Shown here one piece after another: positions 8,902-33,754 of a DNA stretch of 54,709 nucleotides. Both the position numbers and the translations under genes were made by a program. Position 1 is the first letter of the stretch. Each line of letters opens with the position of its first letter. This DNA is from Rhodospirillales bacterium RIFCSPLOWO2_02_FULL_58_16. Its GTDB lineage: Bacteria; Pseudomonadota; Alphaproteobacteria; Rhodospirillales; 2-02-FULL-58-16. The notes beneath the pieces were generated by a model. That model ran no database searches, was not told the origin of the DNA, and was given only the letters and a program-made list of their open reading frames with translations. The stretch lies in NCBI GenBank assembly GCA_001830425.1, contig MIAA01000036.1, positions 1 to 54,709 of the forward strand, given 5' to 3'.

Positions 8902-8906
8902 CAGGG

Positions 8907-9614: not shown

Positions 9615-9778
9615 TTGCCTTCAGGTGGAAAAAGCGGAGGCCGCCGTAAGTTTAAACGTAGACCATGAATGTTTCTCTATATTTTTTCAGAAAACATTAA
9701 CCTTGTTCCTTAGCTGTTCATTAACAAGCTCAATGGTATTCACGGAAATCTTCGCTGAACAGAAAAAAGAGCCGGCCA

Positions 9779-10057: not shown

Positions 10058-10061
10058 AGCG

Positions 10062-10703
10062 TTACTTTCGGATCAGAATCGTCCATTCCCGCAGGGGATG
10101 ACTGTCTATCAGCACGGCGTCGGACGATAAATCGGCGCGGCAAAAGTCGAGAAAGTCCTGTGAATCGGCGTAATACAGCCAGTCCTCAATTTTTTCCCGT
10201 TCATCATTCAGCATGTTGAAGGCCATGCCTTTGGCCGATTTGGCCCACAGTCGGCGCAGGCTTTCCTTAACGTACCTGTTCCACTCCCCTTCGCCGGCGG
10301 TCTGTCTCATGTTATAGGCGCCCGAGGCGAAGGAGTAGTCGGCGACATGGATGGCGGCAGAGCTTTCGTAGAATTGAGCGCGCGGATCGCGCACGCGGCG
10401 GCGAGCGGCCTTTATCATGTCCCTGCTGATGTCATAGCCGAAGAACCGACCGCCATCCATCGGCGGCATGTCCCGGAGAAACTCAAACAAGGCGCCGTAG
10501 CCGCATCCCAGATCGTTGACGCTGATTCCCTTCTTGTGAACATCGTCGCCCATCACTTCGATCAACAACTCAAAGCGCAACTGCTGGCCCTCGGCATTAT
10601 TCCAGAAGACCGCCGAGGGGCCGACCCCATGAAGTTTCAACCGTTGACTGAAAGCGGCGGCCACCGGGGCTAAAAGTTGAGAGGTTGCGTCGTTGGAAAA
10701 CAT
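10062..10703 (-). CDS. Class I SAM-dependent methyltransferase
   Basis: A 213-aa protein with a clear SAM-binding motif I (VNDLGCGYGALFEFL), a motif II-like FFGYDIS, and the usual downstream strand (YSFASGAYNM). The short C-terminal half contains WYADSQDFLDF-like helices without a recognisable acceptor domain. The acceptor is unknown. It lies 12 bases downstream of ygfZ on the same strand, so the two may be co-transcribed. Some alphaproteobacteria keep such methyltransferases with cell-envelope genes, but nothing here fixes the substrate. Confidence 0.75.
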   Translation of the reverse strand: MFSNDATSQLLAPVAAAFSQRLKLHGVGPSAVFWNNAEGQQLRFELLIEVMGDDVHKKGISVNDLGCGYGALFEFLRDMPPMDGGRFFGYDISRDMIKAARRRVRDPRAQFYESSAAIHVADYSFASGAYNMRQTAGEGEWNRYVKESLRRLWAKSAKGMAFNMLNDEREKIEDWLYYADSQDFLDFCRADLSSDAVLIDSHPLREWTILIRK

Positions 10704-16963: not shown

Positions 16964-17299
16964 TTACTCCGCCGTCCGCCACGGGCCGTCCCAGACGACC
17001 ACGCCATCCTTGGCGAACAGGCGGCAGTCGCTTGTGGTTAAGGCGCGGCACTTGAAAAGGGCGTCAAGGACGCCGACGTCGGTGCAATCCTTGGTCGCGC
17101 AATAGGATTCCCCGAAGTGTCCGCCGTCGCTGGAGACAACCAGATATCCGCCCAGATGCTTGTGCCATTCAAAGGCCCTGGTTACCTCCGGCGACAGGGT
17201 TATGGGGCCGGAGCCGCCGAATTGCTGCGCCTCGGTGAGACAGCCCGCCGCCAGAACGGCGACCGGCAACAGGCCGATGATTCTTCCGAGACGGCTAAT
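16964..17299 (-). CDS. Putative lipoprotein at the end of the nir operon
   Basis: A short lipoprotein. The frame reads ISRLGRIIGLLPVAVLAAGC, a textbook lipoprotein signal with the LAAGC lipobox, followed by ~85 residues with four more cysteines (CATKDC and CRALTTSDC) that could form disulfides. No ATG, GTG or TTG gives the whole signal. TTG at 17269 would cut off the basic N-region. An ATT at 17299 that overlaps the nirN stop (ATTAG) would give it in full, so I list that. It sits directly after nirN in the same direction. Function unknown; possibly accessory to heme d1 handling. Confidence 0.55.
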   Translation of the reverse strand: MSRLGRIIGLLPVAVLAAGCLTEAQQFGGSGPITLSPEVTRAFEWHKHLGGYLVVSSDGGHFGESYCATKDCTDVGVLDALFKCRALTTSDCRLFAKDGVVVWDGPWRTAE

Positions 17300-18852: not shown

Positions 18853-20061
18853 TTACAAGACCTTTCGTTGGTGGTGCGCGGATGCGGAAAACGGCGTGAT
18901 TTTTACCCGCTCCCCGGCGTCGGCAACGCCGATCTCCTCGTCGGTAAGATAGCAGGCCGGGTCTTCGGCCCAGGGGTCGCCGGTGATCTGTTCGGCACGC
19001 ACCCTGGTGTTGCCGCCGCAGATATTAAAATATACGCACGCCCCGCAGCGGCCCTTGATCAGGCGCGGGCGGCGCTTGAGGCCGGCCATCAGCGGATCGG
19101 ATGTGTCGTTCCAGATATCGGCAAACGGACGCTTCAGCACGTTGCCGATGGTATAATTCCACCACATGGTGTCGGGGTGAACGTTGCCGGTGTTGTCGAT
19201 GTTGGAAATATTAACTCCTGAGGCGTTGCCGCCCCATTGCGCCAGCTTGGCGTGAACATGCCCGACGGCTTGCGGGAAGTTGTCTTGCAACCACAACAGC
19301 AGATAAACGGCGTCGGCGTCGTTGTTGCCGGTGACGAATTCCTTTTCGTCGCCGTTTTTCAGGCATTGCCGGCCGCGCTCGAACAACAGGTCCATGGCGT
19401 GGCGGGTGGTCTTGAAGAAAGCGTCATCCTTGCGGTTGCGGTTGCCCCGTCCGGCGTAATTGAGATGCGAAAAATAGAAACGGTCGATGTTCTCGGCATC
19501 CAGCAGGTCGAGGATTTGCGGCAGTTCATGAGCGTTGTCATTGGTCATGGTGAAGCGGAGACCCACCTTCAGTCCCAGGTCGCGGCACAGGCCGACGCCT
19601 CGCATGGCGGCCTTATAAGCGCCGTCCAGGCGACGGAACTTGTCATGCGTCTCGCCGATGCCGTCAATGCTGATGCCGACGTAGTCATAGCCGACGGCGG
19701 CGATGTTCTTGATATTGGACTCGTTGATAAGGGTGCCGTTGGTGGACAGCGCCGCATAGAAGCCCATATCCTTGGCGCGGATTGATATGTCGAAAATGTC
19801 GGGGCGCAGCAACGGCTCGCCGCCCGATAAAATGAGAAACGGAACTCTCGCCGCCTTCAGGTCGCCCAGCACCTTGAAAACGTCCTCGGTCGATAACTCG
19901 CCGGGGAAATCCTTGTCGGCGGAAGTGGTGTAACAGTGCTTGCAGGCGAGGTTGCAGCGGCGCACCAGATTCCACACCACTACCGGTCCCGGAAGGTCGC
20001 GGCGGGGGCCGACCGGCGTCGGCTCGTCAAGCTCGCGCAAATACTGGGTCAGCCTGAACAT
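18853..20061 (-). CDS. nirJ: NirJ, radical SAM enzyme of heme d1 synthesis
   Basis: A 402-aa radical SAM protein that removes propionate side chains from didecarboxysiroheme to install the oxo groups of heme d1. The SAM cluster motif is CNLACKHCY (C-x3-C-x2-C) at about residue 36, with ILSGGEPLLRPDIF following. The C-terminal SPASM/Twitch-like part has CGACVYFNICGGNTRVRAE and a later Cys for an auxiliary Fe-S cluster. Encoded between nirH (18 bases) and nirN (4 bases). Full length for the family. Confidence 0.93.
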   Translation of the reverse strand: MFRLTQYLRELDEPTPVGPRRDLPGPVVVWNLVRRCNLACKHCYTTSADKDFPGELSTEDVFKVLGDLKAARVPFLILSGGEPLLRPDIFDISIRAKDMGFYAALSTNGTLINESNIKNIAAVGYDYVGISIDGIGETHDKFRRLDGAYKAAMRGVGLCRDLGLKVGLRFTMTNDNAHELPQILDLLDAENIDRFYFSHLNYAGRGNRNRKDDAFFKTTRHAMDLLFERGRQCLKNGDEKEFVTGNNDADAVYLLLWLQDNFPQAVGHVHAKLAQWGGNASGVNISNIDNTGNVHPDTMWWNYTIGNVLKRPFADIWNDTSDPLMAGLKRRPRLIKGRCGACVYFNICGGNTRVRAEQITGDPWAEDPACYLTDEEIGVADAGERVKITPFSASAHHQRKVL

Positions 20062-20079: not shown

Positions 20080-20571
20080 TCACGCCGAAAAGCGCAATCC
20101 CGTCTTTTTGAGAATGCGGGTGCTGAACAGCACTTCATGGGCGCGCACGTCATCGCCGAGGATATAATTGATCTTGCCCACCCGCTCCATCACTTCGTCG
20201 CGGTCGTGGCCGTGGACCATGGCGAACAGGTTGTAAGGCCATTCCGGCGGGTGGCGGGGACGCAAATAGCAATGGCTGACATATTCCAGGTCGCCGATCA
20301 GGCGTCCGAAGTCGAGAACGCACTCATCCGGCACATCCCACACCGCCATGCCGTTGCCGCGATAGCCCAGCGTGTAATGATTAGGCACCACGCCGATGCG
20401 GCGGATGAGGCCCTGGTCCAGCATCCGTTTCATTCGCCGGATCACCTCTTGCGGCGGGAGGCTCAATTGCTCGGCCACGGCGTCGTAGGGGCGGGCGCAT
20501 AACGGCAATCCCCGCTGGGTAACCAGAACGATCCGGCGGTCGATGTCGTCAATGGTCGCCCTGTCATCCAT
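20080..20571 (-). CDS. nirH: NirH, siroheme decarboxylase subunit
   Basis: One of four AsnC/Lrp-like proteins (NirD, L, G, H) that together remove two carboxyls from siroheme to give 12,18-didecarboxysiroheme. The 163-aa protein has an N-terminal winged helix (RGLPLCARPYDAVAEQL) and an RRIGVVPNHYTLGYRGNGMAVWDVPDE strand pair. WPYNLFAMVHGHDRDEV, the C-terminal RAM-like domain with the conserved His, follows. It pairs in type with nirL (21040), while nirD and nirG form the other type. Four bases separate it from nirG. Confidence 0.87.
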   Translation of the reverse strand: MDDRATIDDIDRRIVLVTQRGLPLCARPYDAVAEQLSLPPQEVIRRMKRMLDQGLIRRIGVVPNHYTLGYRGNGMAVWDVPDECVLDFGRLIGDLEYVSHCYLRPRHPPEWPYNLFAMVHGHDRDEVMERVGKINYILGDDVRAHEVLFSTRILKKTGLRFSA

Positions 20572-20575
20572 GCCT

Positions 20576-21043
20576 TTAAGCTCCGAAACTCAAGCCGATG
20601 AAGAATTCCCTGATCTTCGGCATGTTGTAAACTTTAAGGCCGGTCTCTTCCTCGATGGCGGCGATGACCTCGGCGATGCTTTGCTGGGTTTCGGTGGCGA
20701 TGACGAACCACATGTTAAGTCGATGGTCGCGGGCGTAATTGTGAGCGACTTCGGGATGGGCGTTGACCTGTTCGGCGACGGCGTCAAAGTCCGCTTCCGG
20801 CACTTTCATCGCTGCCAGGGTAAGGCCGCCGCCCAGTTTTTCGGCGTGATACATGGGGCCGAATCTGGTCAGCACGTTGTTATCCAGCATCCTTCGGATG
20901 CGGGCGATAAGATCGTCCCGGTCCAGCCCCAGCCGTTCGGCAACCTCGGCGAAAGGCTCCTCGCTGAGGGGAAAAGCACCTTGCAGGCCGTTGATAATGG
21001 CCCTGTCGGCGTCGTCCAGTAAAATCGGCTTGGGGGCGCTCAT
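20576..21043 (-). CDS. nirG: NirG, siroheme decarboxylase subunit
   Basis: A 155-aa AsnC-like protein with the DFP/AFPLSEEPFAEVAERLGL winged-helix start and the VAHNYARDHRLNMWFVIA motif. Histidines in that motif are thought to contact the siroheme carboxyls in related decarboxylases. The N-terminal ten residues are extra. ATG overlaps the nirL stop (ATGA), so translation is coupled. The assignment to G rather than D rests on gene order and on similarity to nirD at 21525; the two names could be swapped. Confidence 0.85.
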   Translation of the reverse strand: MSAPKPILLDDADRAIINGLQGAFPLSEEPFAEVAERLGLDRDDLIARIRRMLDNNVLTRFGPMYHAEKLGGGLTLAAMKVPEADFDAVAEQVNAHPEVAHNYARDHRLNMWFVIATETQQSIAEVIAAIEEETGLKVYNMPKIREFFIGLSFGA

Positions 21044-21534
21044 ATGACGCTCGCCGCCGGAGAGTAAACGGCGCCGCGCTGCTTGAAGCGGCGTCCGCTG
21101 AAAAGCACCTCGCGGGGCATGTCTTTAAGCCCGCAACCCTCGGCCAGCTCCTCCACCTGGGCCAGCACCACGTCGCGTTCGCGACCGTGAACCATGCAAA
21201 ACAGATTATAGGGCCAAACCGGGGGCCGCCGTTTGCGCCGGTAACATAAGGTGACGAAAGCGAATGTTTTGAAACGTCTGCCGATTTCTCCGGCCTTTTC
21301 ATCGGGAATATCCCACACCACCATGGCGTTGTTTCTGTAGCCCAATTCGTGATGGCGGACGATCACGCCCATGCGGCTGATGATTCCGCTTTCCGCCATG
21401 CGGCCAAGGGCGGCGATCACTTCGCTCTCGCTGATCCCGGCCTGCTTCCCGATTTCACGGAAGGGGCGGCGGCACAGCGGCAAGCCCCGCTCGACAGCGG
21501 TTATCAAGCGGCGATCCTGCTCGGTCAGTTCCAT
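21040..21534 (-). CDS. nirL: NirL, siroheme decarboxylase subunit
   Basis: A 164-aa AsnC-like subunit, same type as NirH: RGLPLCRRPFREIGKQAGI, GVIVRHHELGYRNNAMVVWDIPDE, and WPYNLFCMVHGRERDVV. It overlaps nirD by ten bases and nirG by four, so the four subunits are made as a coupled set. The conserved HH and the HGRER regions match those around the decarboxylase active site in this family. No departure from family length. Confidence 0.86.
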   Translation of the reverse strand: MELTEQDRRLITAVERGLPLCRRPFREIGKQAGISESEVIAALGRMAESGIISRMGVIVRHHELGYRNNAMVVWDIPDEKAGEIGRRFKTFAFVTLCYRRKRRPPVWPYNLFCMVHGRERDVVLAQVEELAEGCGLKDMPREVLFSGRRFKQRGAVYSPAASVI

Positions 21535-21974
21535 TTCAGGTCAAACCCCAGGTCCAGGTGATAGCCCTCAAGCATGGGAAGGTCCAGAACATCAAGGCCG
21601 CTTCGGCGTGATATCTCGGCGATGACGCGGCTTATTCCTTTGTCGTCGGCGGCGGTGATGACAAACCATAGATTAAGGCGATGCTCGCGTTCATAGTTGT
21701 GGTTGACCTCGTCAAAGCCGCTGACCAGTTCGGCGACTTCCTCAAGGCGTTCGGCGGGCACTTCCATGGCGGCCAACGTGCCGACGCCTACGCCGCCGGG
21801 GCGAAATACGCAGCCGACGCGGCTGACGGCGCCGCTCTCGCTCAGTTCCTTCAGCGCCGCGATGACCTCGTCCTCGCCGACGTCGAGCCGGCGCGCAATG
21901 TCGGCGAAGGGACGTTCAGTCAGGGGGAAATCCCTCTGAAATTCGTCGAGAAGACGTTTTTCCAGATCATTCAT
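21525..21974 (-). CDS. nirD: NirD, siroheme decarboxylase subunit
   Basis: A 149-aa first subunit of the DLGH set: DEFQRDFPLTERPFADIARRL winged helix, GVGVGTLAAMEVPAERL strand, and EVNHNYEREHRLNLWFVITAADD with the conserved HNY and REHR residues. In some organisms D and L are fused; here all four are separate. It follows nirF by six bases. The name is by position (first) and type. Confidence 0.88.
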   Translation of the reverse strand: MNDLEKRLLDEFQRDFPLTERPFADIARRLDVGEDEVIAALKELSESGAVSRVGCVFRPGGVGVGTLAAMEVPAERLEEVAELVSGFDEVNHNYEREHRLNLWFVITAADDKGISRVIAEISRRSGLDVLDLPMLEGYHLDLGFDLKWN

Positions 21975-21980: not shown

Positions 21981-23150
21981 TTACAATCCGATGCGATGCG
22001 CCCGTGAGGTAAAGAAAATACCGCTCGGCTTGTCCGCCGGCAGTTCCTTGACGACATGAAAATCGGCAGTATCGTAGACCAGCACCCGGTCGATGTCGCG
22101 CACCGAAACCCAGACTTCCTCGCCGCGCGGCGTAAACTCCATATGCAGCACCCCCTTGCCCGGCGTCAATTCCTTGACGACGGAGTTGGTAGCCACGTCG
22201 ATAATCTGTATGACATCGTTATTAGGCAAAGCGAAATTGACCCAGATATGACGACCGTCGGGACGGGCCGCCACGAATATCGGCTGGCCGTGCACCGGAA
22301 TGCTTCCCGCCTGCTTCCAGGTTGCCGTGTCGATGATCAGCACCTCGTTGCGCCCTACCGCCGGAACAAAAGCCTTGCCGTCAACGACGGCCCAGCCCTC
22401 CAGATGCGGCATTTTGTAGACGGGCAGCTTTTCCGATCCCTTCCCGTAGTCGCCGAGAATCCGCGTCACTCCGGCTTCCGGCTTCCACAGGTCGAGCAGC
22501 GCCATGCCGTCCTCGCCGAACAGCCCGGCGATATAGTAATGTCCGCCCGGCGTAATCAGGGCGTCGTAGGGCAGCGAACCGATGTCTTTATATTTGGTAA
22601 TAACAGGCTTGGCGGGGTCGTTGAGGTCGGCGAGCCATATCTCGCCGCCGTCATAAAGGGTAAAGACAAAACGCCGCCCCGGCGCGTCCACCAGCCCCAC
22701 CGTCTTTGACGCCTTTCCCTCCGTTCCGTAAACGGCGGGGATGTCGGCGACCATTTTCAGGGTCTCGGCGTCGAAAACGCGCACGCCGCCCGGCGTATAA
22801 TTAGAGACGGCGATCAGCCGCCCGTCCTGGGAGACGGCGCCGCCGATGGCGTTGTCGCCCTGAACCACCCGGTTGACAAGTTTACCGGCCAAAATATCGA
22901 TCTTGGACAGGCCGCCGTCGCGCCCGAAGACATAAACGTAATGCTCGTCGCGGGAGTAGACGGCGGAAGCGTGGCTGAGATCGCCAAGCCCTTCGACGCG
23001 GGCGATTTTAGAACGAGTGGTGGTGTTGACGATAAGGACGGAGCCGACCGCTCTCTCGATGATGACGCCAAGGTCGCCGGAGCCTTTGTATTCGACGGAA
23101 GCGCAGGCGCCGACGGCGGCGCAAAGCGCGATGATGCGCAGAAAGATCAT
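21981..23150 (-). CDS. nirF: NirF, heme d1 biosynthesis lipoprotein
   Basis: A 389-aa periplasmic propeller protein required for heme d1 synthesis. The start is the ATG at 23150, preceded by GGAGGAAAAACC and overlapping the nirC stop (ATGA). A frame extending to 23189 adds 13 residues inside nirC and is less likely. The N-terminus MIFLRIIALCAAVGAC is a lipoprotein signal ending in Cys, as in Pseudomonas NirF. The d1-type blades (VYSRDEHYVYVFGRDGGLSKID, GGHYYIAGLFGEDG and others) follow, without a heme c motif. Confidence 0.9.
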   Translation of the reverse strand: MIFLRIIALCAAVGACASVEYKGSGDLGVIIERAVGSVLIVNTTTRSKIARVEGLGDLSHASAVYSRDEHYVYVFGRDGGLSKIDILAGKLVNRVVQGDNAIGGAVSQDGRLIAVSNYTPGGVRVFDAETLKMVADIPAVYGTEGKASKTVGLVDAPGRRFVFTLYDGGEIWLADLNDPAKPVITKYKDIGSLPYDALITPGGHYYIAGLFGEDGMALLDLWKPEAGVTRILGDYGKGSEKLPVYKMPHLEGWAVVDGKAFVPAVGRNEVLIIDTATWKQAGSIPVHGQPIFVAARPDGRHIWVNFALPNNDVIQIIDVATNSVVKELTPGKGVLHMEFTPRGEEVWVSVRDIDRVLVYDTADFHVVKELPADKPSGIFFTSRAHRIGL

Positions 23151-23476
23151 GGTTTTTCCTCCTTGTTGCGTAGAATCCGGACCAGCCATCTGGTTTCCTC
23201 GACGTTGATAAGGGGTCGCCAGGGCGGCATCGGCGTGCCGGGAATGCCGTCGAGAATGATAGAGGCCAGCGCATCGTCAGACCTCTCGGCGAGGAGCGAA
23301 GGCAGAAGAGGCGATCCCAGGCCGCCCTTGCGGGTCATGCCGTGGCACGATCCGCAATCATGGTCAAGAAGGTACAAGAGTTCCGTCTGCCGTTCGGACC
23401 TGATATCGGCGAATAAAACGGTGGAGAAGGCCGACAGACAGAGGGCAAGAACAACGATCAGGGCGTCGTTACGCAC
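23147..23476 (-). CDS. nirC: NirC-like monoheme cytochrome c
   Basis: A ~109-aa periplasmic cytochrome with a signal peptide (LIVVLALCLSAFSTVLFA), heme site CGSCHG, and distal Met in GTPMPPWRPL. NirC is thought to feed electrons to NirS or NirF/NirJ steps during d1 maturation. The frame runs back to 23518 inside nirE. The start chosen is GTG at 23476 (VRNDALIVV...), which overlaps the nirE stop by eight bases and leaves a normal signal peptide. Coupled to nirF by ATGA. Confidence 0.82.
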   Translation of the reverse strand: MRNDALIVVLALCLSAFSTVLFADIRSERQTELLYLLDHDCGSCHGMTRKGGLGSPLLPSLLAERSDDALASIILDGIPGTPMPPWRPLINVEETRWLVRILRNKEEKP

Positions 23477-24272
23477 TGGCCGAACATTCTTCCTCGTTGT
23501 CGAGAACCGCATCCTCATAGATCAATCCCTGCCAGTTCAGACTCTTGGCCAGACTGACGACCTTACCGATGATGATCATGACCGGCGTTTTATAGCCGAG
23601 CGCGACGACCAGAGCGGGCAATCGTTCAAGAGTGGTGACACATTGCCTTTGACCCGCCGCCGTTACCTTGAGCACCGCCGCCGCCGGCGTATCGGCGGCC
23701 ATCCCTGCGGCGATCAACTCGTCGGCGATCCGGGGAAGGTTGGCCAGTCCCATATAAAAGACGATGGTGGTGTTGGGGTCGGCCATGCCTTTCCAGTTCA
23801 GGTCGAGTTCGTCTTCGGACTGACAATGGCCGGTGACAAACTGCACGCCGGTGGCGAGAGCGCGGTGCGTCAGAGGAATGCCGAGAGCGCTGCCGGCCGC
23901 CGAGGCGGAGGTAACCCCCGGCACGACCTCGAAAGGTACGCCGTGAAGTTTCAGATATAAAGCCTCCTCGCTGCCGCGACCGAAAATAAACGGGTCTCCG
24001 CCCTTGAGGCGAACCACGGAATGGTTACTTTTGGCGAGGCTGACCAGCAGATCGTTGATATCGTCCTGGGGCATATGATGGTTGTTGGGAGCCTTGCCGA
24101 CGAAGATGCGGGCTTTTCCCGGCGGAACGAGGTCGAGAATTTCCGGCGAGACCAGACGGTCATAAACGACCACATCGGCACTCATAAGAAGCCGTCGGGC
24201 CTTGATCGTCATCAGATCAGGGTCCCCCGGCCCGGCCCCCACCAGATAAACACAACTGACGTCGCTCACCAT
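23469..24272 (-). CDS. nirE: NirE, uroporphyrinogen-III C-methyltransferase
   Basis: SAM-dependent enzyme that makes precorrin-2, the entry to siroheme and heme d1. The 267-aa core has VYLVGAGPGDPDLMTIKA, VVYDRLV, VRLKGGDPFIFGRG, VVPGVTSASAAG and PLTHR, all SUMT signatures. The open frame extends upstream to 24389, but the ATG at 24272 with GGGAGG just before it (GTG at 24269 also fits) gives the family-like start MVSDVSCVYLVGAG. First gene of the minus-strand nir operon. It is divergent from nirS, with 302 bases between. Confidence 0.92.
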   Translation of the reverse strand: MVSDVSCVYLVGAGPGDPDLMTIKARRLLMSADVVVYDRLVSPEILDLVPPGKARIFVGKAPNNHHMPQDDINDLLVSLAKSNHSVVRLKGGDPFIFGRGSEEALYLKLHGVPFEVVPGVTSASAAGSALGIPLTHRALATGVQFVTGHCQSEDELDLNWKGMADPNTTIVFYMGLANLPRIADELIAAGMAADTPAAAVLKVTAAGQRQCVTTLERLPALVVALGYKTPVMIIIGKVVSLAKSLNWQGLIYEDAVLDNEEECSASA

Positions 24273-24574
24273 AAACCTCCCGGAATCAGGCATTCGCAAC
24301 CGAATTTGAGGCAAGGGAAGCACAAAAAAGAATTCCGCGCCACCCTTTCCGGCGCAACCCTTTCCGAACTCCCCAAAAAAATTGTGCAAAAAGTCAAAGT
24401 CAAGGGTTGATTAGTTGGCAATAACCATTCACATTGTGCGGCAATGTCGTTTTCTACGCCTTCTCACGGCTAATTAAACGTTAGCTTTTCCTTATCTCGT
24501 TATTGGGGGGAAAGAGAAAAAGGAGAACGCCAGGTCAACTCTAGTGTGACTTTAATCAACAGGGAGGCAATTTT
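24273..24574. promoter_or_regulatory. Divergent nirE/nirS intergenic control region
   Basis: About 300 bases holding the promoters for both nir units. Seen directly: a TTGAT half-site at 24407-24411 (with TGGCA four bases on, so only one half is good), and GTGAC-TTTA-ATCAA at 24546-24559, close to the FNR/NnrR-family consensus TTGAT-N4-ATCAA. The second lies only ~15 bases before the nirS start codon, overlapping the leader, and so is oddly placed for an activator. No confident -35/-10 was fixed. GGGAGG precedes the nirS ATG. Confidence 0.5.
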
Positions 24575-26257
24575 ATGAAAAAACTAATGTTTGTCACATC
24601 AGTGGCAAGCTTGGTCGGCGGCCTGATGATGGGCACTGCGGCTATTGCCGTAGCGGAAGAAGCGGCGGCGCCCACGTTATCCAAAGAAGCGTTTGAGAAA
24701 TCGAACACGATTTTCTTCCAGCGCTGCACAGGCTGTCATGGCGTTCTGCGTAAGGGCGCCACCGGCAAGTCCCTTCTGCCCGGCCCGACGACTGACGCCA
24801 AGGGCGTGGTCACGGCCAAAGGCACGATCGCCATGGGCACCAAGGACCTTACCAAGATCATCACTCTCGGCACCGAAAACGGGATGGTCAACTTCGACGA
24901 GACTCTCTCCAAGCAGGAAATCGCCGATATGGCCGTCTATCTGCAAATGCCGGTCGCGGTTCCGCCAGAAATGAGCCTGGCCGACATGAAGAAGACCCAC
25001 AAAGTCCGCGTCGAACCGAAAGATTATCCGGCGAAGCCCGCTCATGACCGTAATTGGGAAAACTTCTTCATGGTCATCCTGCGTGACGCCGGCAAGGTCG
25101 GCGTTATCGACGGCGACAAAAAGGAAGTGGTCACCAGGGTCGACACCGGTTACGCCATTCACGTCCTGAAAGAGTCCTCTGAAGGTCGTTTCTGGTACAC
25201 CCAGGGCCGTGACGGCAGGATGAACAAGATCGACGTGTGGGCGAATCCCCCGGTATCTACCGCCGAAGCCAGAATCGCCTACGAAGCCCGTGACGTCGCC
25301 GTTTCCCACTATGGAGAATGGAAAGACAAATACGTCATCGGCGGCGGTTACTGGCCCCCGCACTTCGCCATCCTTGACGGCAAAACCATGGAGCCGCTGA
25401 AAGTGGTTTCCACCCGTGGCACCAACATCAACGGCGAATTCGTCAACGAAGCCCGCGTCGCCGCCATCTACGCCCCTGCGATGTCCCCGACATGGATGGT
25501 CGCGGTGAAGGAACTCGGTCAGGTGTGGCAGGTCGATTACAGCGATCTCGACAACCTGCGCGTCGAGAAGCAAAACACCCACTTGATGCTCCACGACGGC
25601 TTCTTCGACCCGTCCGGAAAGTACTTCCAGATTGCGGCCAATGCTTCCAACCGCATGGAATTTGTGGACACCGTTACCCGCAAGGCCGTCGGCTCGCTTG
25701 AAACCGGCGTGAAGCCCCATCCCGGACCCGGCGCCAACTGGAACGACGACAAGTGCGGACCGGTAGGAGCCACCGTCCATCTGGGCGAAGGCAAGATCAC
25801 CGCTTGGGGCAACGACCCCAAGGGCCGTCCGGACCAGGCCTGGAAGAAGTGCTATGATGAAAAGACCGGCGGTCCCGGCCTGTTCATCCGCACCCACCCC
25901 AATTCGCCTTATGTCTTTGCCGACCAGACTCTGATGCCGGATCCTGAAGTCAACCAGAGCGTCTCTGTTCTTGACAAGAAGACCGGCAAGGTCGTCAAGT
26001 CGCTCCGCGTAACCCAGGGCGAAGGCATGGCGGCTGTGCATATCGAGTTCAACAAGGACGGCTCCGAGGTTTGGGTGTCCGCCTGGAACAAGAAGCGTCC
26101 CGCCGCCGCTGCCGGCGACAAGGCTGCTATCGTAAGCAACACAGGCGAAATCGTCGTCTATGACAGCAAGACGCTCGCGGAAAAGGCCCGCATCAAGGGA
26201 CTCGAAACCCCCACGGGTAAGTTCAATATCTACAGCCGGAAAAATCGCGTAGGCTAA
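24575..26257 (+). CDS. nirS: Cytochrome cd1 nitrite reductase (NirS)
   Basis: Periplasmic enzyme that reduces nitrite to NO. A signal peptide (~1-27) precedes heme c site CTGCHG at 51-55, then an eight-bladed d1 propeller. The two active-site histidines of the family are visible: LMLHDGFFDPSG and KPHPGPGANWND (equivalent to His327 and His369 of Pseudomonas NirS). HPNSPYVFADQ and AAVHIEFNKDGSEVWVS are also present. The 560-aa length is normal. A strong AGGGAGG ribosome site and a following terminator suggest a short unit, perhaps read through into the diheme cytochrome. Confidence 0.96.
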   Translation: MKKLMFVTSVASLVGGLMMGTAAIAVAEEAAAPTLSKEAFEKSNTIFFQRCTGCHGVLRKGATGKSLLPGPTTDAKGVVTAKGTIAMGTKDLTKIITLGTENGMVNFDETLSKQEIADMAVYLQMPVAVPPEMSLADMKKTHKVRVEPKDYPAKPAHDRNWENFFMVILRDAGKVGVIDGDKKEVVTRVDTGYAIHVLKESSEGRFWYTQGRDGRMNKIDVWANPPVSTAEARIAYEARDVAVSHYGEWKDKYVIGGGYWPPHFAILDGKTMEPLKVVSTRGTNINGEFVNEARVAAIYAPAMSPTWMVAVKELGQVWQVDYSDLDNLRVEKQNTHLMLHDGFFDPSGKYFQIAANASNRMEFVDTVTRKAVGSLETGVKPHPGPGANWNDDKCGPVGATVHLGEGKITAWGNDPKGRPDQAWKKCYDEKTGGPGLFIRTHPNSPYVFADQTLMPDPEVNQSVSVLDKKTGKVVKSLRVTQGEGMAAVHIEFNKDGSEVWVSAWNKKRPAAAAGDKAAIVSNTGEIVVYDSKTLAEKARIKGLETPTGKFNIYSRKNRVG

Positions 26258-26310: not shown

Positions 26311-26416
26311 GCATTTTTTTCATCCGTAAGTAAAATTTTTGCTGTTCATGCGGCGCTTTATGATAGAGTCGCGTCAACTATGCGAGGCTCGGCTCAATGA
26401 GGGGGGAGATTTTCAA

Positions 26417-27142
26417 ATGGGAACCAGCAAGTTTGTATTGGCGGCGTTTGCCGCAGCATTTCTTTTAACGCCGGGCGCGGTCTTCGCCGGCTCCGACATA
26501 GAAGGCGGAACCGAGTATAAAATCGCCCAGGGCGGTCAGTTATACGATAACTGGATCGAGATCACCGAAGCCGCCGACCCGCCCATGGGCACGAATGAGG
26601 CTTATCCCCAGGACAAGGGCAAGGCCCGGAAAGCCAAGTCGTGGCTGTGCATCAGTTGTCACGGCTGGGATTACAAGGGCAAGGACGGCGTTTTCGGCAA
26701 GGAAGGCGACAAGGACTTTACAGGCATCAAGGGCGTCATCGGCGCCGCCGGCAAGGATCCCAAGAGCCTGCTTGACGTCATCAAGGGAAAACACGGCCTT
26801 AAAGACGATTCGATCGAAGACGAGGAAGTTGAAGCCCTCGCCGCTTTTGTCAGCGCCGGATTGGGCGATGTCGGCAAATATATCAGCGCGACGGGCCAGG
26901 GCACCGGCGACAAGGCCAAGGGCAAGTTGTACTACAGCACCCTTTGCATCAACTGTCACGGCGCTGACGGCAAGTTGATTGCCGACCTGCCGGCCCTCGG
27001 CGCTCTCACCAACGAAAACCCGTGGCGGGGCCTGCACACCATCCGCAACGGTCGTCCCAAACAGCCGATGCCGGGTCTGCGCGCCCTGCCGGAGAACGTT
27101 TCCGGCGATATCCTGGCCTATGTTCAGACATTGTCTAAATAA
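26417..27142 (+). CDS. Diheme cytochrome c of the nir locus
   Basis: A 241-aa exported cytochrome. The start is the ATG at 26417 (GGGGGGAG upstream); a frame reaching back to 26339 is not supported by a ribosome site. The signal peptide ends near VFAGSD; then GGQLYDNWIEITEAADPP, heme site CISCHG, a linker, and a second heme site CINCHG in a typical class-I fold, with QPMPGL supplying a distal Met. By position it is a likely electron donor to NirS, in place of the cytochrome c551 (NirM) not found in this window. Donor role is inference. Confidence 0.82.
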   Translation: MGTSKFVLAAFAAAFLLTPGAVFAGSDIEGGTEYKIAQGGQLYDNWIEITEAADPPMGTNEAYPQDKGKARKAKSWLCISCHGWDYKGKDGVFGKEGDKDFTGIKGVIGAAGKDPKSLLDVIKGKHGLKDDSIEDEEVEALAAFVSAGLGDVGKYISATGQGTGDKAKGKLYYSTLCINCHGADGKLIADLPALGALTNENPWRGLHTIRNGRPKQPMPGLRALPENVSGDILAYVQTLSK

Positions 27143-27434: not shown

Positions 27435-27854
27435 ATGAGAAAAATATGGATCATGGCGGCGCTCGGTTTCGGCGTGACCGTTTCGACCGTTCAGGTTTCG
27501 GCGGCCGATCCCACCGCTCAGCCCGTTGAAATCTGCGCCGAGGCGGCTGAACGGCTCAAAAGCGTCGAGCCTGACCCTGCCGTCGACCCCAAGGCGGTTG
27601 TCGTACTCACCTACAAATTCAATTTCTGCCCCAAGGAATTGACGATCAAGGCGGGAACCAAGGTGCAATGGGTGAATGTGGAAAAGCGGACCAATCACAG
27701 CGTTTGGCTTAAAGACGCGGGCATTGACGAGTCGGCGCGTTTTTTCCCCGGCGACGGCTGGCGGCACACCTTTGAAAAGGCCGGCAAATATCCGTATCTA
27801 TGCGGCCCCCACGGCGTCGATGAAAAAATGACGGGTCTGATCACGGTCGAGTAA
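27435..27854 (+). CDS. Periplasmic cupredoxin (plastocyanin/pseudoazurin-like)
   Basis: A 139-aa blue-copper protein with a signal peptide (ends QVSAAD). Copper ligands in a type-1 arrangement: NHSVW (His), then YLCGPHGVDEKMTG (Cys-x2-His and Met). An extra pair of cysteines (VEICAEAAE and NFCPKELTI) may form a disulfide. It lies between the nir locus and the oxidase-like module and starts after a GGGAGA ribosome site. Expected to shuttle electrons to NirS or to the CuA-bearing complex; this is by analogy with pseudoazurins of denitrifiers. Confidence 0.83.
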   Translation: MRKIWIMAALGFGVTVSTVQVSAADPTAQPVEICAEAAERLKSVEPDPAVDPKAVVVLTYKFNFCPKELTIKAGTKVQWVNVEKRTNHSVWLKDAGIDESARFFPGDGWRHTFEKAGKYPYLCGPHGVDEKMTGLITVE

Positions 27855-27862: not shown

Positions 27863-28612
27863 TTATTTGACGTAGACCGCGCCGGTTACGGTGTCGAAGG
27901 AGAAGACCATCACCTGGACAGGCTCCAGGGTTATTTCCTTTTCCAGGAAATAATTGAATTTTTCATCGCCGCCATCATCGATTATGCCCAGCGACATAGT
28001 GTGCCTGCCGGCAGGCGCCTTGAAGTTCTCATAAAAACTGGACTGTCCGTCGCCGGTTATGCCCACGGGCTTAAGCGTCTCGCGATAAAGCAGTTTGCCG
28101 TCCAGTTTCAATTCGACAAGCACCGGCCAGCGCTCCCTGGAACACTTCATCGGAGCGCGCATGTTGGGAGACAGTTCGGCGATTTCCTCCTTGGTGCGTT
28201 TGTGGCATTTCTCCTTGTGTTGTCCGGGAAGCGTCATGCTCATCTTGATCAGCGCCTGATCGGGGGAAACAACGGAATAGGGCGGCGTATTTGAAAAATG
28301 GGCGACCATAAAGGCGAAAGGCACATAAAACACCGCTTGCGCGAACAACCGCGACGGCGTCATCGGATATCTGCCGACGGTTGACCGCTCTTTTCGCAGC
28401 TTTGAATCCAGTTCCCGCACATCTTTACGGCGCCGGCGCTCCAGTTTCTGGAGGCGCTTCATCTCCTTGACCTCAGGCGACGGGTTAAAGATGTCCTTCA
28501 GCGTCAGATGATAAAAAAGAAACCCGACTAACGGGCCGATAATGAACACAGGCCATAAATGTCCGAGGCGCAATCCGCCGATTATTTCGATGTGAAAGAG
28601 ATCACCCATCAT
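27863..28612 (-). CDS. Membrane protein of unknown function in the redox module
   Basis: A 249-aa protein with a TM segment near residues 16-36 (LWPVFIIGPLVGFLFYHL), a highly basic, charged stretch (EMKRLQKLERRRRKDVRELDSK), a second TM near 88-106, then a ~130-aa soluble C-domain. Two cysteines of that domain (HKEKCHKR and PMKCSRERW) stand out. I do not recognise the family. It overlaps the b/FeS/MvhD fusion gene by four bases (ATGA-type), so the two are surely expressed together and may form one complex. The C-domain has a beta-rich look. Confidence 0.72.
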   Translation of the reverse strand: MMGDLFHIEIIGGLRLGHLWPVFIIGPLVGFLFYHLTLKDIFNPSPEVKEMKRLQKLERRRRKDVRELDSKLRKERSTVGRYPMTPSRLFAQAVFYVPFAFMVAHFSNTPPYSVVSPDQALIKMSMTLPGQHKEKCHKRTKEEIAELSPNMRAPMKCSRERWPVLVELKLDGKLLYRETLKPVGITGDGQSSFYENFKAPAGRHTMSLGIIDDGGDEKFNYFLEKEITLEPVQVMVFSFDTVTGAVYVK

Positions 28613-30144
28613 GATCTTCCTTCAAGCGAGGCGCGGAACGTCGCAAGCTCCGTCTCCAGCAGCTTCCTGTCGATGCGCGACGCCCAGGTGGTGCGGAAGC
28701 GGTCACGAGGCACTCTCTTGCGCAATTCCGGGTCGCGGAAGCCGTTGATGCGGTCACGCATCCAGTGATCACCCAAACGGCTGTAGCAGTCGCATTCCCG
28801 GCAACCGACCAGCAATACGCCGTCAGGCCCCTCGCGGCTGAGCGCGTAATCAATGAAAGACGGCGGCAACATGGCGATGCAGGGAAGGCTGAATCCGGTC
28901 ACTCCGGGCTGTTCGATCAACCTGATGTCAATGCTGTGATCGCAGCCGAACACGAGAACCTTGGGCCGTCCGTTATCGCCCCCGCCCTTTAATTTTTCCA
29001 TCGCCTTGTTGGTAAGGTCGCGCAGCTTCGCCAGCGACAGGTCGGGAAGGTCGATGCCGGTGGCCAGTTCTTCGGTATTACGGAAGGGCGTGGAGATGGG
29101 GCAGGCGCCGACGCAAATGCCGCACGCCGTGCACAGGTCGGCGTTTACCACCGCTTCTTCCTTGAAGGGGCGTCCGTCGGTGCGGGGCTGCATGACCACC
29201 GCATTGAACGGACAGTCGGCGTAACAGCGGGTGCAGCCGTTACATTTTGCCAGGTCAACAAAGGCCGGCCTGGGCAGCCGCATCGGCGGCAGCCACGGCA
29301 TGGCCGCCGAAAGCAAGGTCACCGCCAAGGCTATTCCCCACAGGCTTCCCGGACCCCAGTTCTCAAACAAGGGATAGAATATCATGAAGAACCAGTCCAG
29401 GTTCACGGTGGTCGGCGTCGTTCCCAGGTCCGCCGGAAGATGGCTGATCGCCGGCTTGACCAAAGCGATGACAAACAGCATCAGGGTTATGCCTACGGCC
29501 AGGCCGCGTGGAGGTTTAATTTTCGGACGGCTCACCCTCAGCACATGGAACCACATGATGAACAGCAGCATCAGCGGGGCAAAGATGTGCATAAAGATCA
29601 GGAGGGTGAAAAACCTGTCGCCAAGGCTTCCCCTGGTCAGGAAATTATTGGCGACATGCTCGCCGAATATCCCCAGCCAGTCGATCCATTCCATGGAGGC
29701 GATAGCGATATACTGGGCCAGTTGATCCCAAACCAGCCAGTAGCCGCTGATGCCGGAAAAAACGAGCATCCACAGGATTGGCACGCCGAGAACCCAGGTA
29801 AACCAGCGGACATCGCGATAGCGGTCAAAGATGAATTCACGGCTTAAATGCAATATCGCCGACACCACCATGGTGTCCGAGCCGTAGCGGTGGAAGCTGC
29901 GGATTACGCCTCCCAGATACCACTGCTCATGCGTAATATACTGAACGGAATTATAGGCGCCGGCGACGCTGGTATCGAACAGGATGTAAAGGTAAATGCC
30001 GGTCCCGGCGACGATCCAGTAAAGGTAGAACGTTATGCTGCCGAGCTGGCGCAACGGGTTCCACTTCGGCCCGAAGGCGCGGTCGAATACCGCTTCAACG
30101 CAAAGCAGGAAGTCTTGCAGCGGGCGGCGGAAGTTTTTCGGCAA
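28609..30144 (-). CDS. Diheme cytochrome b, 2x[4Fe-4S] ferredoxin and MvhD-like fusion
   Basis: A 511-aa three-part protein. Part 1 (~1-275) is a multi-span cytochrome b6-type domain. Bis-His pairs sit 14 residues apart in SFHRYGSDTMVVSAILHL and in FMHIFAPLMLLFIMWFHV. Part 2 (~290-360) holds two ferredoxin motifs, CNGCTRCYADCP and CTACGICVGACP. Part 3 (~395-450) looks like the MvhD/FrhD hydrogenase delta subunit, with Cys in FGCDHS, LPCIAM and GCRECDCYS. Such a protein could pass electrons between quinones and a soluble donor. The usual first MvhD CxxC is changed to C-x-H-S. Coupled to the 249-aa protein. Confidence 0.8.
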   Translation of the reverse strand: MPKNFRRPLQDFLLCVEAVFDRAFGPKWNPLRQLGSITFYLYWIVAGTGIYLYILFDTSVAGAYNSVQYITHEQWYLGGVIRSFHRYGSDTMVVSAILHLSREFIFDRYRDVRWFTWVLGVPILWMLVFSGISGYWLVWDQLAQYIAIASMEWIDWLGIFGEHVANNFLTRGSLGDRFFTLLIFMHIFAPLMLLFIMWFHVLRVSRPKIKPPRGLAVGITLMLFVIALVKPAISHLPADLGTTPTTVNLDWFFMIFYPLFENWGPGSLWGIALAVTLLSAAMPWLPPMRLPRPAFVDLAKCNGCTRCYADCPFNAVVMQPRTDGRPFKEEAVVNADLCTACGICVGACPISTPFRNTEELATGIDLPDLSLAKLRDLTNKAMEKLKGGGDNGRPKVLVFGCDHSIDIRLIEQPGVTGFSLPCIAMLPPSFIDYALSREGPDGVLLVGCRECDCYSRLGDHWMRDRINGFRDPELRKRVPRDRFRTTWASRIDRKLLETELATFRASLEGRS

Positions 30145-30205: not shown

Positions 30206-31105
30206 TCAAGAAGGGGAAAGTTTCGGCCCCATCACCGCCGCTTCCTTCTCGGCGGCGATACGTCTGCGCCTGATCAGTATGCTTTGCCTGATAACGAAAA
30301 AGATCATCGGAATGATGACGGTCAGCCCGGCGGCGATGCGGACAAAAATGGTGATGTCAAACTTATATGTGTTATTCAGCGGATCATAGACCGTGCAGAA
30401 CAGGCGAATTTTTTTGACAAAATCATCAACGCTGGCATACGGGTCTTCGGTTCCGAAAATTAACTGCTTGATAGGGTCGATCAGCAGCGGCAGATCGAAT
30501 GTTTCGCCGTAAACATGGCGATAGACCTTGCCTTCAACGGTAAGCACCGAGGTCTGGGTCAGGTGTTCAAACCCTCCCGACGCCGGGTAGTAGATAAACC
30601 CCAGGTCTTTGGTCAGGCTTTTGATGGTGGCGGCGTCGGCGCTCAGGAACTTCCAGTTCTTGATCCCGTCAACGCCGTTCTGACCGGCGTAAAGGCGCAT
30701 CCTTTCGGGAGTGTCGTTGACCGTATCAAAGCCGATGGAAACGATGGAATACTGATCCTCGCCGAAGGCCTTGTTTGCAACCACGCGGGTGTCGTTGATC
30801 TGATTGGTGATCAACGGACAGACATGGGCGCAGCTTGAATAGATCAGGCTGATGATCAGAACCTTGCCGCGAAAATCGGATAACTTTACCGGCTGTCCCC
30901 GGCTGTCCTTGAAATCGTAATCGCCGACCGACTTGCCGATGACGCCCTGACTATAGGCATAGGCTTCCTTTTCGCTGTATCCCGAGCCTTTTACGACGGC
31001 GTCATCCATGGGTTGGGCCATGGCCGCCGCCATAAACGCAAAAAACCCGGCGACCGTGAAGCCGCCGAGTCGCAACAATATCAGGCAGTGCTTGCCGACG
31101 GCCAT
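30206..31105 (-). CDS. SCO1/SenC-family copper chaperone
   Basis: A 299-aa membrane-anchored thioredoxin-fold protein needed for CuA assembly in cytochrome oxidases. The Cu ligands are SSCAHVCP (C-x3-C) and the later His in FEHLTQTS. N-terminal signal or anchor, plus an additional C-terminal TM (ITIFVRIAAGLTVIIPMIFFVI) absent from many SCO proteins. The start is the ATG at 31105; a frame back to 31174 is less likely. It lies between the b/FeS fusion and the oxidase genes; its presence implies that the CuA in subunit II is genuinely loaded. Confidence 0.88.
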   Translation of the reverse strand: MAVGKHCLILLRLGGFTVAGFFAFMAAAMAQPMDDAVVKGSGYSEKEAYAYSQGVIGKSVGDYDFKDSRGQPVKLSDFRGKVLIISLIYSSCAHVCPLITNQINDTRVVANKAFGEDQYSIVSIGFDTVNDTPERMRLYAGQNGVDGIKNWKFLSADAATIKSLTKDLGFIYYPASGGFEHLTQTSVLTVEGKVYRHVYGETFDLPLLIDPIKQLIFGTEDPYASVDDFVKKIRLFCTVYDPLNNTYKFDITIFVRIAAGLTVIIPMIFFVIRQSILIRRRRIAAEKEAAVMGPKLSPS

Positions 31106-31135
31106 GTTCCCATCCGAAATTTTATAAAAAAGGGC

Positions 31136-31177
31136 AAAAAAAATAACGGGGTGGACGGCGGTTAGGCCATCCACCCC
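31136..31177 (-). terminator. Rho-independent terminator after the oxidase-like genes
   Basis: On the minus strand GGGGTGGA (31177-31170) pairs with TCCACCCC (31155-31148), then a run of eight T's (31143-31136). It ends the heme-copper gene unit, with SCO as a separate or read-through unit. Confidence 0.87.
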
Positions 31178-31188
31178 ATTTTAGAGTC

Positions 31189-32874
31189 TCAGCTAAGACC
31201 CCAGACGTCGGACAGATACTTCCAGTTCACGAAGTAGTAGAGAACAAACGTGACCAGGAAGATCATCGCCAAGGTGAAGGTGCCGGGCACCTCCATGGCG
31301 CCGGCGCTACCGTGTTTGGTAGCGGCGGAAGCCACTGAAGCCGCCGGGGCCGCTTTTGCCGCCGGAGCATGAACCTTGGATTTGCCGACCAAGATGGTCA
31401 GCACCATGTTGAGCACATAAACAAGCCCGCCGACGGCGCCGATAACGCCGCACAAGCTGGCGAGTCCCATCATCATGAAAGCCGAAGCAGGCAAATCATA
31501 ACCGATGGCGGCGTCGGCAAAGGACATATCCCAGTGCCGGCGCGGCGCGCCGACGGTTCCGGCGCCCATTTGCAGGATAGCCAAACCGCCCATCCCAAGA
31601 CCGAACAGATACGGCTGAAACTTGGCCAGACCGGGCAACACCAGTTCCTTCTGCCACAACGTGGGTACGATCCAGTAGGAGATACCCATGAAGGCCAGGG
31701 TCGTTCCTGTGGCGACGGTGCCATGGAAGTGACCGGGAACATACATGGTGTTGTGCATAATCAGGTTAAGCTGCTCGGTGCCCAGCACCACGCCGGTTAT
31801 GCCGCCGAGGAAGCCGAACATGACCAACGACAAGGCAAACGCGGAGAATACCGGATTGCCCCAAGGCGCCTTGGTCAGCCACTCAAACAAGCCGTTGTTA
31901 TAGCCCTTCTTGCGCTGGGCCGCTTCAACGCAACCCGGCACGGTCAAGCCGTGGACCATGCTGGCCAGCACCGCCAGATAGAGGGCGTAGCTGGTGTTGA
32001 AGATCTTCCACTCCGAGGTAATGCCCGGATCAACCAGCAGATGGTGGGCGCTGGCCAATTGCAGGAAGAAGATATACAGCAGGAAGGCAAACCGGCTGAC
32101 TTTTTCAGACAGCGGCTTGGCTCCGAACAGGATCGCCGCGCTGGCATACCACACCGCGATATGAGCCGACACGTTGATCTGCTGCGAGGAATGACCCATC
32201 GCCCACCAGATAACCTTGTAAACAACGGTGTCGATATGTCCCAGCAGACCCGCCGACCACGCCAACGTCGGAATAAGAATGATGGCGCCGGTAAGGATGG
32301 TGAACACGGCAATCAACGCCGCCGTTATGGCGCCGAAAGTCACCAGAGGGACAGTGCCGACAAAGACTTTTTCCACCTTCGCCATGTGAATGGTGAAGAA
32401 GAAAACGAAGCAGGCGATAAGAGCGCCGACGGCAAACAGGATTATGCCGAGGTAGAAGTCCGGCGTCGCCATCATCGGCGGATAGGAAGTAAACATAACG
32501 CTGGAATTGCCGCTGAGTACGGCGACGTTGGTGATCGCCGCTCCGACCAGCATCGTCCAGTAGGCAATCCATGCCCAGCCGGGTCCCGCCAGACGGCAAT
32601 TCAGGAGAATCGCCGAGGTGAAGTAAAGCAACGCCACCTCAAAGAAGATAATCCACACCAGCAGAATGTCCAGGCCGTGCGCGGTAAGCGCCAGGTAGAA
32701 CAAATCGGCCGGAAGAAGATGTACGGCCGGCCAGCGCGTCAACGCCACCAATAGACCCATAAGTCCGCCGACCAGGAAGAAGACCACGGCCGTAACCGCG
32801 TTCCACTTGATCAGCTTTTCGGCGGCGAGGTCGATTTTAAATCCCGTTTCGGGACATGTTCTGAATTGTGCCAT
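31189..32874 (-). CDS. Heme-copper oxidase-family subunit I, probable alternative NO reductase
   Basis: A 561-aa polytopic protein. Conserved His are visible: low-spin heme in LTAHGLDILL and VPGHFHGTV (two His, high and low spin), and metal-site His in WWAMGHSSQQINVS and ASAHHLLVDP. The HPEVY or HxxxY motif of oxygen reductases is replaced by HSSQQ, and no Tyr stands at the cbb3 position near the HH pair by eye. This pattern, with CuA in subunit II, resembles the alternative NO reductase families (eNOR/sNOR-like) rather than O2 reductases. Start ATG 32874 with GGGGGG. Enzymatic assignment is inference, supported by neighbouring nirS. Confidence 0.78.
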   Translation of the reverse strand: MAQFRTCPETGFKIDLAAEKLIKWNAVTAVVFFLVGGLMGLLVALTRWPAVHLLPADLFYLALTAHGLDILLVWIIFFEVALLYFTSAILLNCRLAGPGWAWIAYWTMLVGAAITNVAVLSGNSSVMFTSYPPMMATPDFYLGIILFAVGALIACFVFFFTIHMAKVEKVFVGTVPLVTFGAITAALIAVFTILTGAIILIPTLAWSAGLLGHIDTVVYKVIWWAMGHSSQQINVSAHIAVWYASAAILFGAKPLSEKVSRFAFLLYIFFLQLASAHHLLVDPGITSEWKIFNTSYALYLAVLASMVHGLTVPGCVEAAQRKKGYNNGLFEWLTKAPWGNPVFSAFALSLVMFGFLGGITGVVLGTEQLNLIMHNTMYVPGHFHGTVATGTTLAFMGISYWIVPTLWQKELVLPGLAKFQPYLFGLGMGGLAILQMGAGTVGAPRRHWDMSFADAAIGYDLPASAFMMMGLASLCGVIGAVGGLVYVLNMVLTILVGKSKVHAPAAKAAPAASVASAATKHGSAGAMEVPGTFTLAMIFLVTFVLYYFVNWKYLSDVWGLS

Positions 32875-32885
32875 GATCGCCCCCC

Positions 32886-33431
32886 TCACTTCTCTACAAC
32901 GAACATTTTGGACGACATGGTGTGATGTCCGATGCCGCAAAATTCGTTACAGATCAATCCGAATTCGCCCGATGAAGTCGGGGTCAGCGTAAACACCAAC
33001 TCGTAATCGGGATGGATCTGAATGTTAATGTTCTCAGGCAACAGCGAGAACCCGTGCAGGTAATCCAGCGAGGAAAGGTGGAAGCGATAGTTCTGCCCCT
33101 TTTCCAGTTCGAGGATCGGGTACCATTCCCACAGGCGGGCGAGCAGATAAACATCGCTGCCTGCCGGCGGGTGGACAACGGGAACGTTGTTCGCGCCGAC
33201 CGTTTTAGCGGTCTTGTGCTTATCGACCATGGCGTTAACCTTGGCCTCGAATGCCGCCGGTCCGATCTCATAGGCCTCGTTGGACAGATTCTGTTTACCG
33301 GCGATGTGCCAATAGGGCATCATAAAAAACAATATCAATGCCCAAACCAAAGCGACGCTGATCCACGTAACCTCGGTTTTTTCTATCGGCTCGTTCCACC
33401 AGAGCGGATTTTCTGGAGGTGTAATAGCCAT
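32886..33431 (-). CDS. Cytochrome oxidase-like subunit II with CuA site
   Basis: A 181-aa protein: one N-terminal TM (WISVALVWALILFFMMPYW) and a periplasmic cupredoxin domain with the CuA motif CNEFCGIGHHTM (C-x3-C-x3-H-x2-M) and the earlier His in DYLHGFSLL. Shorter than aa3-type subunit II (one TM, no second hairpin). It receives electrons from a periplasmic carrier such as the cupredoxin or c-cytochromes nearby. 11 bases upstream of subunit I; GGGGGAG ribosome site. Confidence 0.88.
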   Translation of the reverse strand: MAITPPENPLWWNEPIEKTEVTWISVALVWALILFFMMPYWHIAGKQNLSNEAYEIGPAAFEAKVNAMVDKHKTAKTVGANNVPVVHPPAGSDVYLLARLWEWYPILELEKGQNYRFHLSSLDYLHGFSLLPENINIQIHPDYELVFTLTPTSSGEFGLICNEFCGIGHHTMSSKMFVVEK

Positions 33432-33449
33432 TTGTTCTCCCCCTCTAAG

Positions 33450-33617
33450 TTATGGTGCCGGCGGAATCGCGAGAGCGTCGTAAACGCCCCACACGACGTA
33501 AATTAACATCGGCACAACGTTGCCGATCACAACGAGCAACCACATATTGTCAAGAAGCCGTTGCATGAAAGGCACGTCACAACACGCCGGTGCCGCGCCC
33601 GAACCTGGGTTTGCCAT
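33450..33617 (-). CDS. Small (55-aa) single-span subunit of the oxidase-like complex
   Basis: A short gene preceding subunit II: ATG at 33617, stop TAA at 33450, with an uninterrupted GGGGGGGG ribosome site directly before the ATG. Sequence: a Gly/Ala N-terminus with a CC pair, VPFMQRLLDN, then a hydrophobic span (MWLLVVIGNVVPMLIYVVWG), then VYDALAIPPAP. Eighteen bases separate it from subunit II. Likely a small membrane subunit of the complex, like CcoQ/CoxIV-type subunits; family not recognised. Too short for ordinary gene-finding cut-offs. Confidence 0.72.
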   Translation of the reverse strand: MANPGSGAAPACCDVPFMQRLLDNMWLLVVIGNVVPMLIYVVWGVYDALAIPPAP

Positions 33618-33754
33618 TGCCCCCCCCTCTAAAAGTTAACTGCATCAAAAAGTAACCTAGCTGATCGTACAGAATATATATCCTGAAAAATCATAGATAC
33701 ATACATATCTCAACGAAATTCTTACGTCCATACCTAAAAAATCAGGAAACGACC

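Follow-up and report, generated by a model that had tools for sequence, protein, structure and literature searches.

The stretch of DNA analysed here (the window) is a contig of 54,709 nucleotides from Rhodospirillales bacterium RIFCSPLOWO2_02_FULL_58_16 (MIAA01000036.1). The region of interest contains the following features:

17295-18848 and 21981-23189, minus strand: two cytochrome d1-domain proteins
18853-20061, minus strand: radical SAM protein
20080-21974, minus strand: NirDL-type siroheme decarboxylase genes
23469-24389, minus strand: uroporphyrinogen methyltransferase
24575..26257, plus strand: nirS, cytochrome cd1 nitrite reductase (PF02239, E 2.9e-105)
26339-27142, plus strand: c-type cytochrome (Pfam), a possible periplasmic electron carrier
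27435-27854, plus strand: plastocyanin-like cupredoxin (Pfam), another possible periplasmic electron carrier
27863..28612, minus strand: membrane-anchored, probably periplasmic beta-sandwich protein, always adjoining the fusion
28609..30144, minus strand: fusion protein of 511 aa with a TTG start (diheme cytochrome b, 2x[4Fe-4S], FlpD/MvhD)
28624..28968, minus strand: FlpD/MvhD domain of the fusion, residues 393-507 (PF02662, hhalign, PDB MvhD chains)
29092..29259, minus strand: 2x[4Fe-4S] ferredoxin domain, residues 296-351, with eight invariant Cys
29269..30102, minus strand: cytochrome b domain, residues 15-292, with six transmembrane helices (PF00033, hhalign, Foldseek, invariant His)
29392..29397, minus strand: D250-W251, at the place of the PEWY quinol-site motif in an alignment with cytochrome b
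30206..31174, minus strand: SCO1/SenC copper chaperone-like protein (PF02630, E 9e-12)
31145-31180, minus strand: strong terminator-like hairpin with 15 pairs and a T run, located between subunit I and SCO1
31189..32940, minus strand: eNOR subunit I (PF00115), in which Gln replaces the active-site Tyr (GHSSQQ)
32886..33431, minus strand: eNOR subunit II, with the CuA ligand motif CNEFCGIGHHTM
33450..33617, minus strand: unannotated small protein of 55 aa with a single transmembrane helix, directly upstream of subunit II

The minus-strand genes between 17295 and 24389 form a heme d1 gene set.

The plus strand at 28609-30144 is interrupted by stop codons and the 511-codon reading frame is that of the minus strand, where AAGGGAG precedes the TTG start as a plausible ribosome site. 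A sequence-only reading of the window had described the product as a three-domain redox fusion. This description is borne out by Pfam matches above the curated cut-offs to cytochrome b (PF00033, residues 33-204, E 1.4e-17), a Fer4 dicluster (residues 300-349, E 4.8e-9) and FlpD (PF02662, residues 412-507, E 2.1e-8; 34.7 bits for a curated cut-off of 22.3). hhalign further aligned the fusion with the cytochrome b (98.7%, residues 20-292) and the MvhD (97.7%) of its own genome, and a PDB search returned cytochrome b6, polyferredoxins and MvhD chains, one kind for each part of the protein. No NCBIfam family scored above its cut-off, the best being the b-type cytochrome ExtP (NF040969; 98/290 bits).

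Among 150 close genomes, 46 contain a full-length relative of the fusion (mostly at 47-68% identity), and so do 34 of 398 genomes sampled across the phylum, its own genome counted (mostly at 43-50% identity); one scan of genome contigs yielded a single relative. The domain order, which the initial reading had proposed to check, is unchanged in the relatives from both sets, and by sequence none of them lacks the third domain. The same reading had pointed out two bis-His pairs with a spacing of 14 (H85/H99 and H186/H200) and two ferredoxin motifs in one polypeptide (C301/304/307/311 and C338/341/344/348). All four His and all eight Cys are invariant in about 70 orthologues; as these share 43-68% identity, chance motifs are therefore excluded. 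Cysteine spacing is identical in 74 distinct fusion sequences, and D250-W251 is found in 70 of 70 sequences. The proposed five-Cys MvhD-like segment holds for the protein of the window, but invariance extends only to C401, C422, C448 and C453, and the fifth residue (C451) is present in 27% of orthologues. Replacement of the first CxxC by C-x-H is a genuine feature of this copy and a trait of the family, the second Cys of the canonical motif being Gly, Ser or Ala in 69 of the 70 orthologues and His occupying position +2 of the first FlpD Cys in 73% of them. MvhD carries a [2Fe-2S] cluster, for which four invariant Cys suffice. The FlpD domain of the fusion could hold one such cluster through its own four, and at the level of sequence the Cys positions appear compatible with it. 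One relative, carried by a Defluviimonas plasmid, is annotated solely as "cytochrome b N-terminal domain-containing protein".

An AF2 model of the fusion (mean pLDDT 86, pTM 0.82) shows six long membrane helices followed by two soluble domains, and Foldseek matched it to cytochrome b6 and to bc1 cytochrome b over up to ~290 columns. The heme ligands H85 and H186 lie on the p side and H99 and H200 on the n side. In a profile comparison with the cytochrome b of the same genome, D250-W251 falls on the E-W of PEWY; the motif reads LDWF in the fusion, Pro being lost and Glu replaced by Asp. The loops on the side bearing the Fe-S domains carry positive charge; these domains should therefore be cytoplasmic, and the Asp-Trp motif should face the periplasm, judging from cytochrome b topology. 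This likely arrangement fits the membrane electron bridge that had been suggested for the protein. As in bc1/b6f cytochrome b (PF00033), the two bis-His hemes are bound with a spacing of 14 on helices B and D, and helices E/F are shared, D250-W251 resembling PEWY; unlike bc1 cytochrome b, the fusion has two helices fewer, Asp for Glu, no Rieske gene in its operon and a cytosolic Fe-S extension.

The adjoining complex had been called NO-reductase-like. The association with an NO reductase stands, but the complex is more precisely eNOR. The closest PDB relatives of subunit I are ba3-type (B family) oxidases, and its GHSSQQ aligns with the GHPxxY of ba3 oxidase, Gln replacing the active-site Tyr in all 41 aligned subunit I sequences, Thermus and Thermomicrobium plasmid copies included. 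The metal-ligand residues H88, H250, H299, H300, H404 and H406 are all conserved (at least 97%). Subunit II is a cupredoxin with the CuA motif CNEFCGIGHHTM, its match to the CoxB family being below cut-off. The Gln signature is that of Table A4 of PMC8756737, and a B-family-like subunit I and a subunit II with a CuA motif are likewise shared with published eNOR (Hemp and Gennis 2008; PMC8756737); by this signature the complex is eNOR, and NO reduction and proton pumping are predicted for it. The little-studied eNOR, with which bacteria detoxify or respire NO, is annotated as cytochrome oxidase and can readily be overlooked when denitrification is surveyed. The genome encodes three other heme-copper proteins, one cbb3-type subunit and two divergent ones, and inspection by eye revealed no cNOR- or qNOR-like motif in these three. 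A protein similar to the 55-aa product, with the pattern MQ.LLDNPFLLLFIGV..PTVLYTIWGIMEI..IP, is encoded at 45 of 46 eNOR loci, Thermus and Thermomicrobium ones among them. The 55-aa product is likely, from this sequence pattern, an overlooked third (small) subunit of eNOR.

The genes form a conserved operon in the order [small TM protein]-SUII-SUI-(CyoE)-SCO1-fusion-membrane beta-sandwich protein. eNOR subunit genes lie upstream of the fusion in 38 of 40 neighbourhoods (the remaining two being contig ends), and the beta-sandwich gene lies downstream in all 40. SCO1 belongs to the operon in nearly all relatives and heme O synthase (CyoE) often does; neither Rieske nor cytochrome c1 genes occur in it. 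The beta-sandwich protein, in which C136, C157 and H204 are more than 90% conserved, matched no Pfam family, and its model gave no Foldseek match at E<=0.001. The hairpin at 31145-31180 could uncouple expression of eNOR from that of SCO1, the fusion and the beta-sandwich protein. No match to an FNR-type box was found upstream of the operon, at 33432-33754. Judged from representative sequences only, hemerythrin-like proteins are encoded in 28 and Crp/Fnr-type regulators in 20 of the 40 neighbourhoods (L036-L075), near the beta-sandwich gene.

The linkage to nir genes seen in the window is not a general one, as nirS is within reach of the fusion in only 14 of the 40 neighbourhoods. In a phylum sample of 397 genomes, the fusion occurs in 28 of 29 eNOR genomes (Fisher p 9e-37), and in the only exception (G218) the contig stops just past SCO1. 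Broken down by gene content, it is present in 23 of 24 genomes with eNOR and nirS, in 5 of 5 with eNOR only, in 2 of 25 with nirS only and in 3 of 343 with neither. Distance matrices of the fusion and of subunit I are correlated (r 0.82, 41 loci), SCO1 showing the closest co-divergence with the fusion (r 0.85); at the 17 loci with nirS, r is 0.89 for subunit I and 0.56 for NirS. As related genomes share ancestry, these co-occurrence and co-divergence values overstate the number of independent events. The fusion thus tracks eNOR and not nirS, which had been considered as its partner and which we reject as the main one given the rarity of the fusion in nirS genomes without eNOR and the weaker co-divergence. 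We consider it highly probable that the fusion is a partner of eNOR in Pseudomonadota, where it is a strong genomic marker for this enzyme. In a search that covered the plasmids only, the eNOR plasmids of Thermus and Thermomicrobium were found to carry no fusion. eNOR chemistry therefore does not seem to need the fusion, which is apparently an accessory of eNOR in its proteobacterial branch.

The initial reading had mentioned as background that MvhD normally links hydrogenase to heterodisulfide reductase. FlpD homology and the HdrA-MvhD cluster that this genome carries separately, on a different contig, are compatible with docking of the FlpD part on a hydrogenase or Hdr-type complex. No hydrogenase or Hdr gene recurs across the 40 neighbourhoods, however. 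Most of the fusion-bearing relatives lack canonical MvhD, which also occurs in relatives devoid of the fusion, so that the two do not co-occur. Such a partner was thus rejected, and docking of this kind seems very improbable. The fusion shares with MvhD/FlpD (PF02662; PDB 5odc_D, 9sw2_D) the family and four of the five Cys positions, but differs in nearly always lacking the second Cys of CxxC, in being fused to a membrane cytochrome and in having no hydrogenase/Hdr linkage.

Another clue comes from variants of the fusion. In one family (f66) it is duplicated in tandem, all ligands being retained in both copies. In genome G509, the eNOR operon reads SUII-SUI-CyoE-SCO1-[cytochrome b-Fer2-FAD-NAD(P)]-beta-sandwich-fusion-divergent heme-copper protein. 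The bracketed paralogue (locus L156, ~8640-10620, minus strand, a 664-aa ORF) has kept the Asp-Trp motif and all four heme-binding His of its cytochrome b part, and its C-terminus consists of a [2Fe-2S] ferredoxin and an FAD/NAD(P) reductase instead of the Fe-S part of the fusion. This arrangement was found in G509 only, among 55 genomes. The swap points to a cytosolic electron port, and suggests, from this single genome, that the cytoplasmic part of the fusion is exchangeable in that role. The soluble low-potential donor put forward in the initial reading may exist; this NAD(P)H-reductase-fused paralogue supports it indirectly.

We propose that the fusion is a dedicated transmembrane electron-transfer subunit for eNOR, the proton-channel type NO reductase. 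Of the two b hemes that its six helices would hold, one would lie close to the periplasmic face by D250-W251 and the other close to the cytoplasm. The wire would extend into the cytoplasm through two [4Fe-4S] clusters and the single [2Fe-2S] cluster of the FlpD domain. A cytosolic carrier would dock on the FlpD domain and give electrons, which the hemes may then relay to the quinone pool or to a periplasmic carrier, so that NO would be reduced, or eNOR primed, without sole reliance on the bc1 route. We assign a probability of roughly 0.5 to this proposal as a whole, eNOR partnership and electron supply taken together, the partner being better fixed by the evidence than the mechanism. A bolder version is put forward tentatively: a cytosolic reductant would feed the FlpD port and electrons would flow through the three Fe-S clusters and both b hemes directly to eNOR (within a supercomplex or by a dedicated carrier), thereby bypassing bc1, an electron route into NO reduction that has gone unrecognised. 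The port would be exchangeable, one lineage having put an NAD(P)H-FAD reductase in its place.

The complete wire, the quinone motif and the domain swap speak for electron supply. Its main rival is a role in maturation, to which the SCO1, heme-synthase and beta-sandwich context points. The fusion may then be a transmembrane reductase that keeps periplasmic Cu(II) or thiols reduced during CuA/CuB insertion, together with SCO1 and the beta-sandwich protein. Analogues are CcoG/FixG and CcoH for cbb3 oxidase and NosR for N2O reductase. The fusion gene lies between those of SCO1, its closest companion in co-divergence, and of a membrane-anchored protein in which two Cys and a His are conserved at more than 90%, heme O synthase is often encoded in the same operon, and the genes following SUI mostly encode assembly factors. 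However, such a reductase needs less than a complete diheme cytochrome b bearing a quinone-site motif, and in the f75 family the genes of the beta-sandwich protein and the fusion stand on their own as a pair, mostly beside nirS and apart from SCO1, with eNOR usually elsewhere, NirS being devoid of copper. A maturation role is therefore possible, though we would not bet on it. Electron supply has its own difficulties: no cytosolic oxidoreductase is among the recurrent genes of the 40 neighbourhoods, canonical MvhD does not co-occur with the fusion, the domain swap is that of a single genome, and transfer from the cytosol to a quinone site on the periplasmic side would conserve no energy.

Electrons could also flow in the opposite direction, with quinol oxidised at the periplasmic site and electrons passed inward via the Fe-S clusters to a cytosolic acceptor, which would be electrogenic and might conserve energy or reduce cytosolic carriers. 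The periplasmic side of the PEWY-like motif agrees with it, as does the parallel of Qmo-type complexes, which have FlpD-like parts and in which electrons flow from quinol to the cytosol. Yet no cytosolic reductase or acceptor is linked to the fusion, which is tied to an enzyme whose electrons enter from the periplasm (CuA), and we regard this direction as unlikely. QmoABC, NosR/NapH and CcoG are membrane proteins or complexes in which electron transfer links cytosolic Fe-S clusters with quinone or the periplasm; their folds or subunit make-up differ from those of the fusion.

In the literature searched, we found no discussion of the fusion; the main survey of NO reductase diversity was outside its scope and may describe the association. 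Published eNOR descriptions (Hemp and Gennis 2008; PMC8756737) give two subunits and do not name the fusion as a partner. While eNOR is already known, the domain combination of the fusion is in print once, uncommented: Table A3 of PMC8756737 lists RME88945.1, an ORF with cytochrome b6, 4Fe-4S (DMSOR_beta-like) and FlpD domains, entered for an extra cytochrome c (C1) domain with no eNOR linkage given. The "novel cytochrome" of Accumulibacter cited in PMC2289847 could not be matched to the fusion. Proteobacterial eNOR appears to possess an electron supply or maturation module of its own, which bears on how N2O is made, and the fusion shows an MvhD-type electron port at work outside hydrogenase/Hdr chemistry.

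Two divergent heme-copper proteins are encoded elsewhere in the genome. The product of L162:1249-3180(-) (contig C26) is of B type and seemingly devoid of metal-ligand His (YHMFLEPG, GAFHF). That of L163:1378-2853(-) (contig C43) resembles subunit I and is devoid of the CuB His-His pair. Relatives of the latter were found at L052-L055, L152-L154, L156 and L157, and in several lineages their genes directly adjoin those of the fusion and of the beta-sandwich protein.
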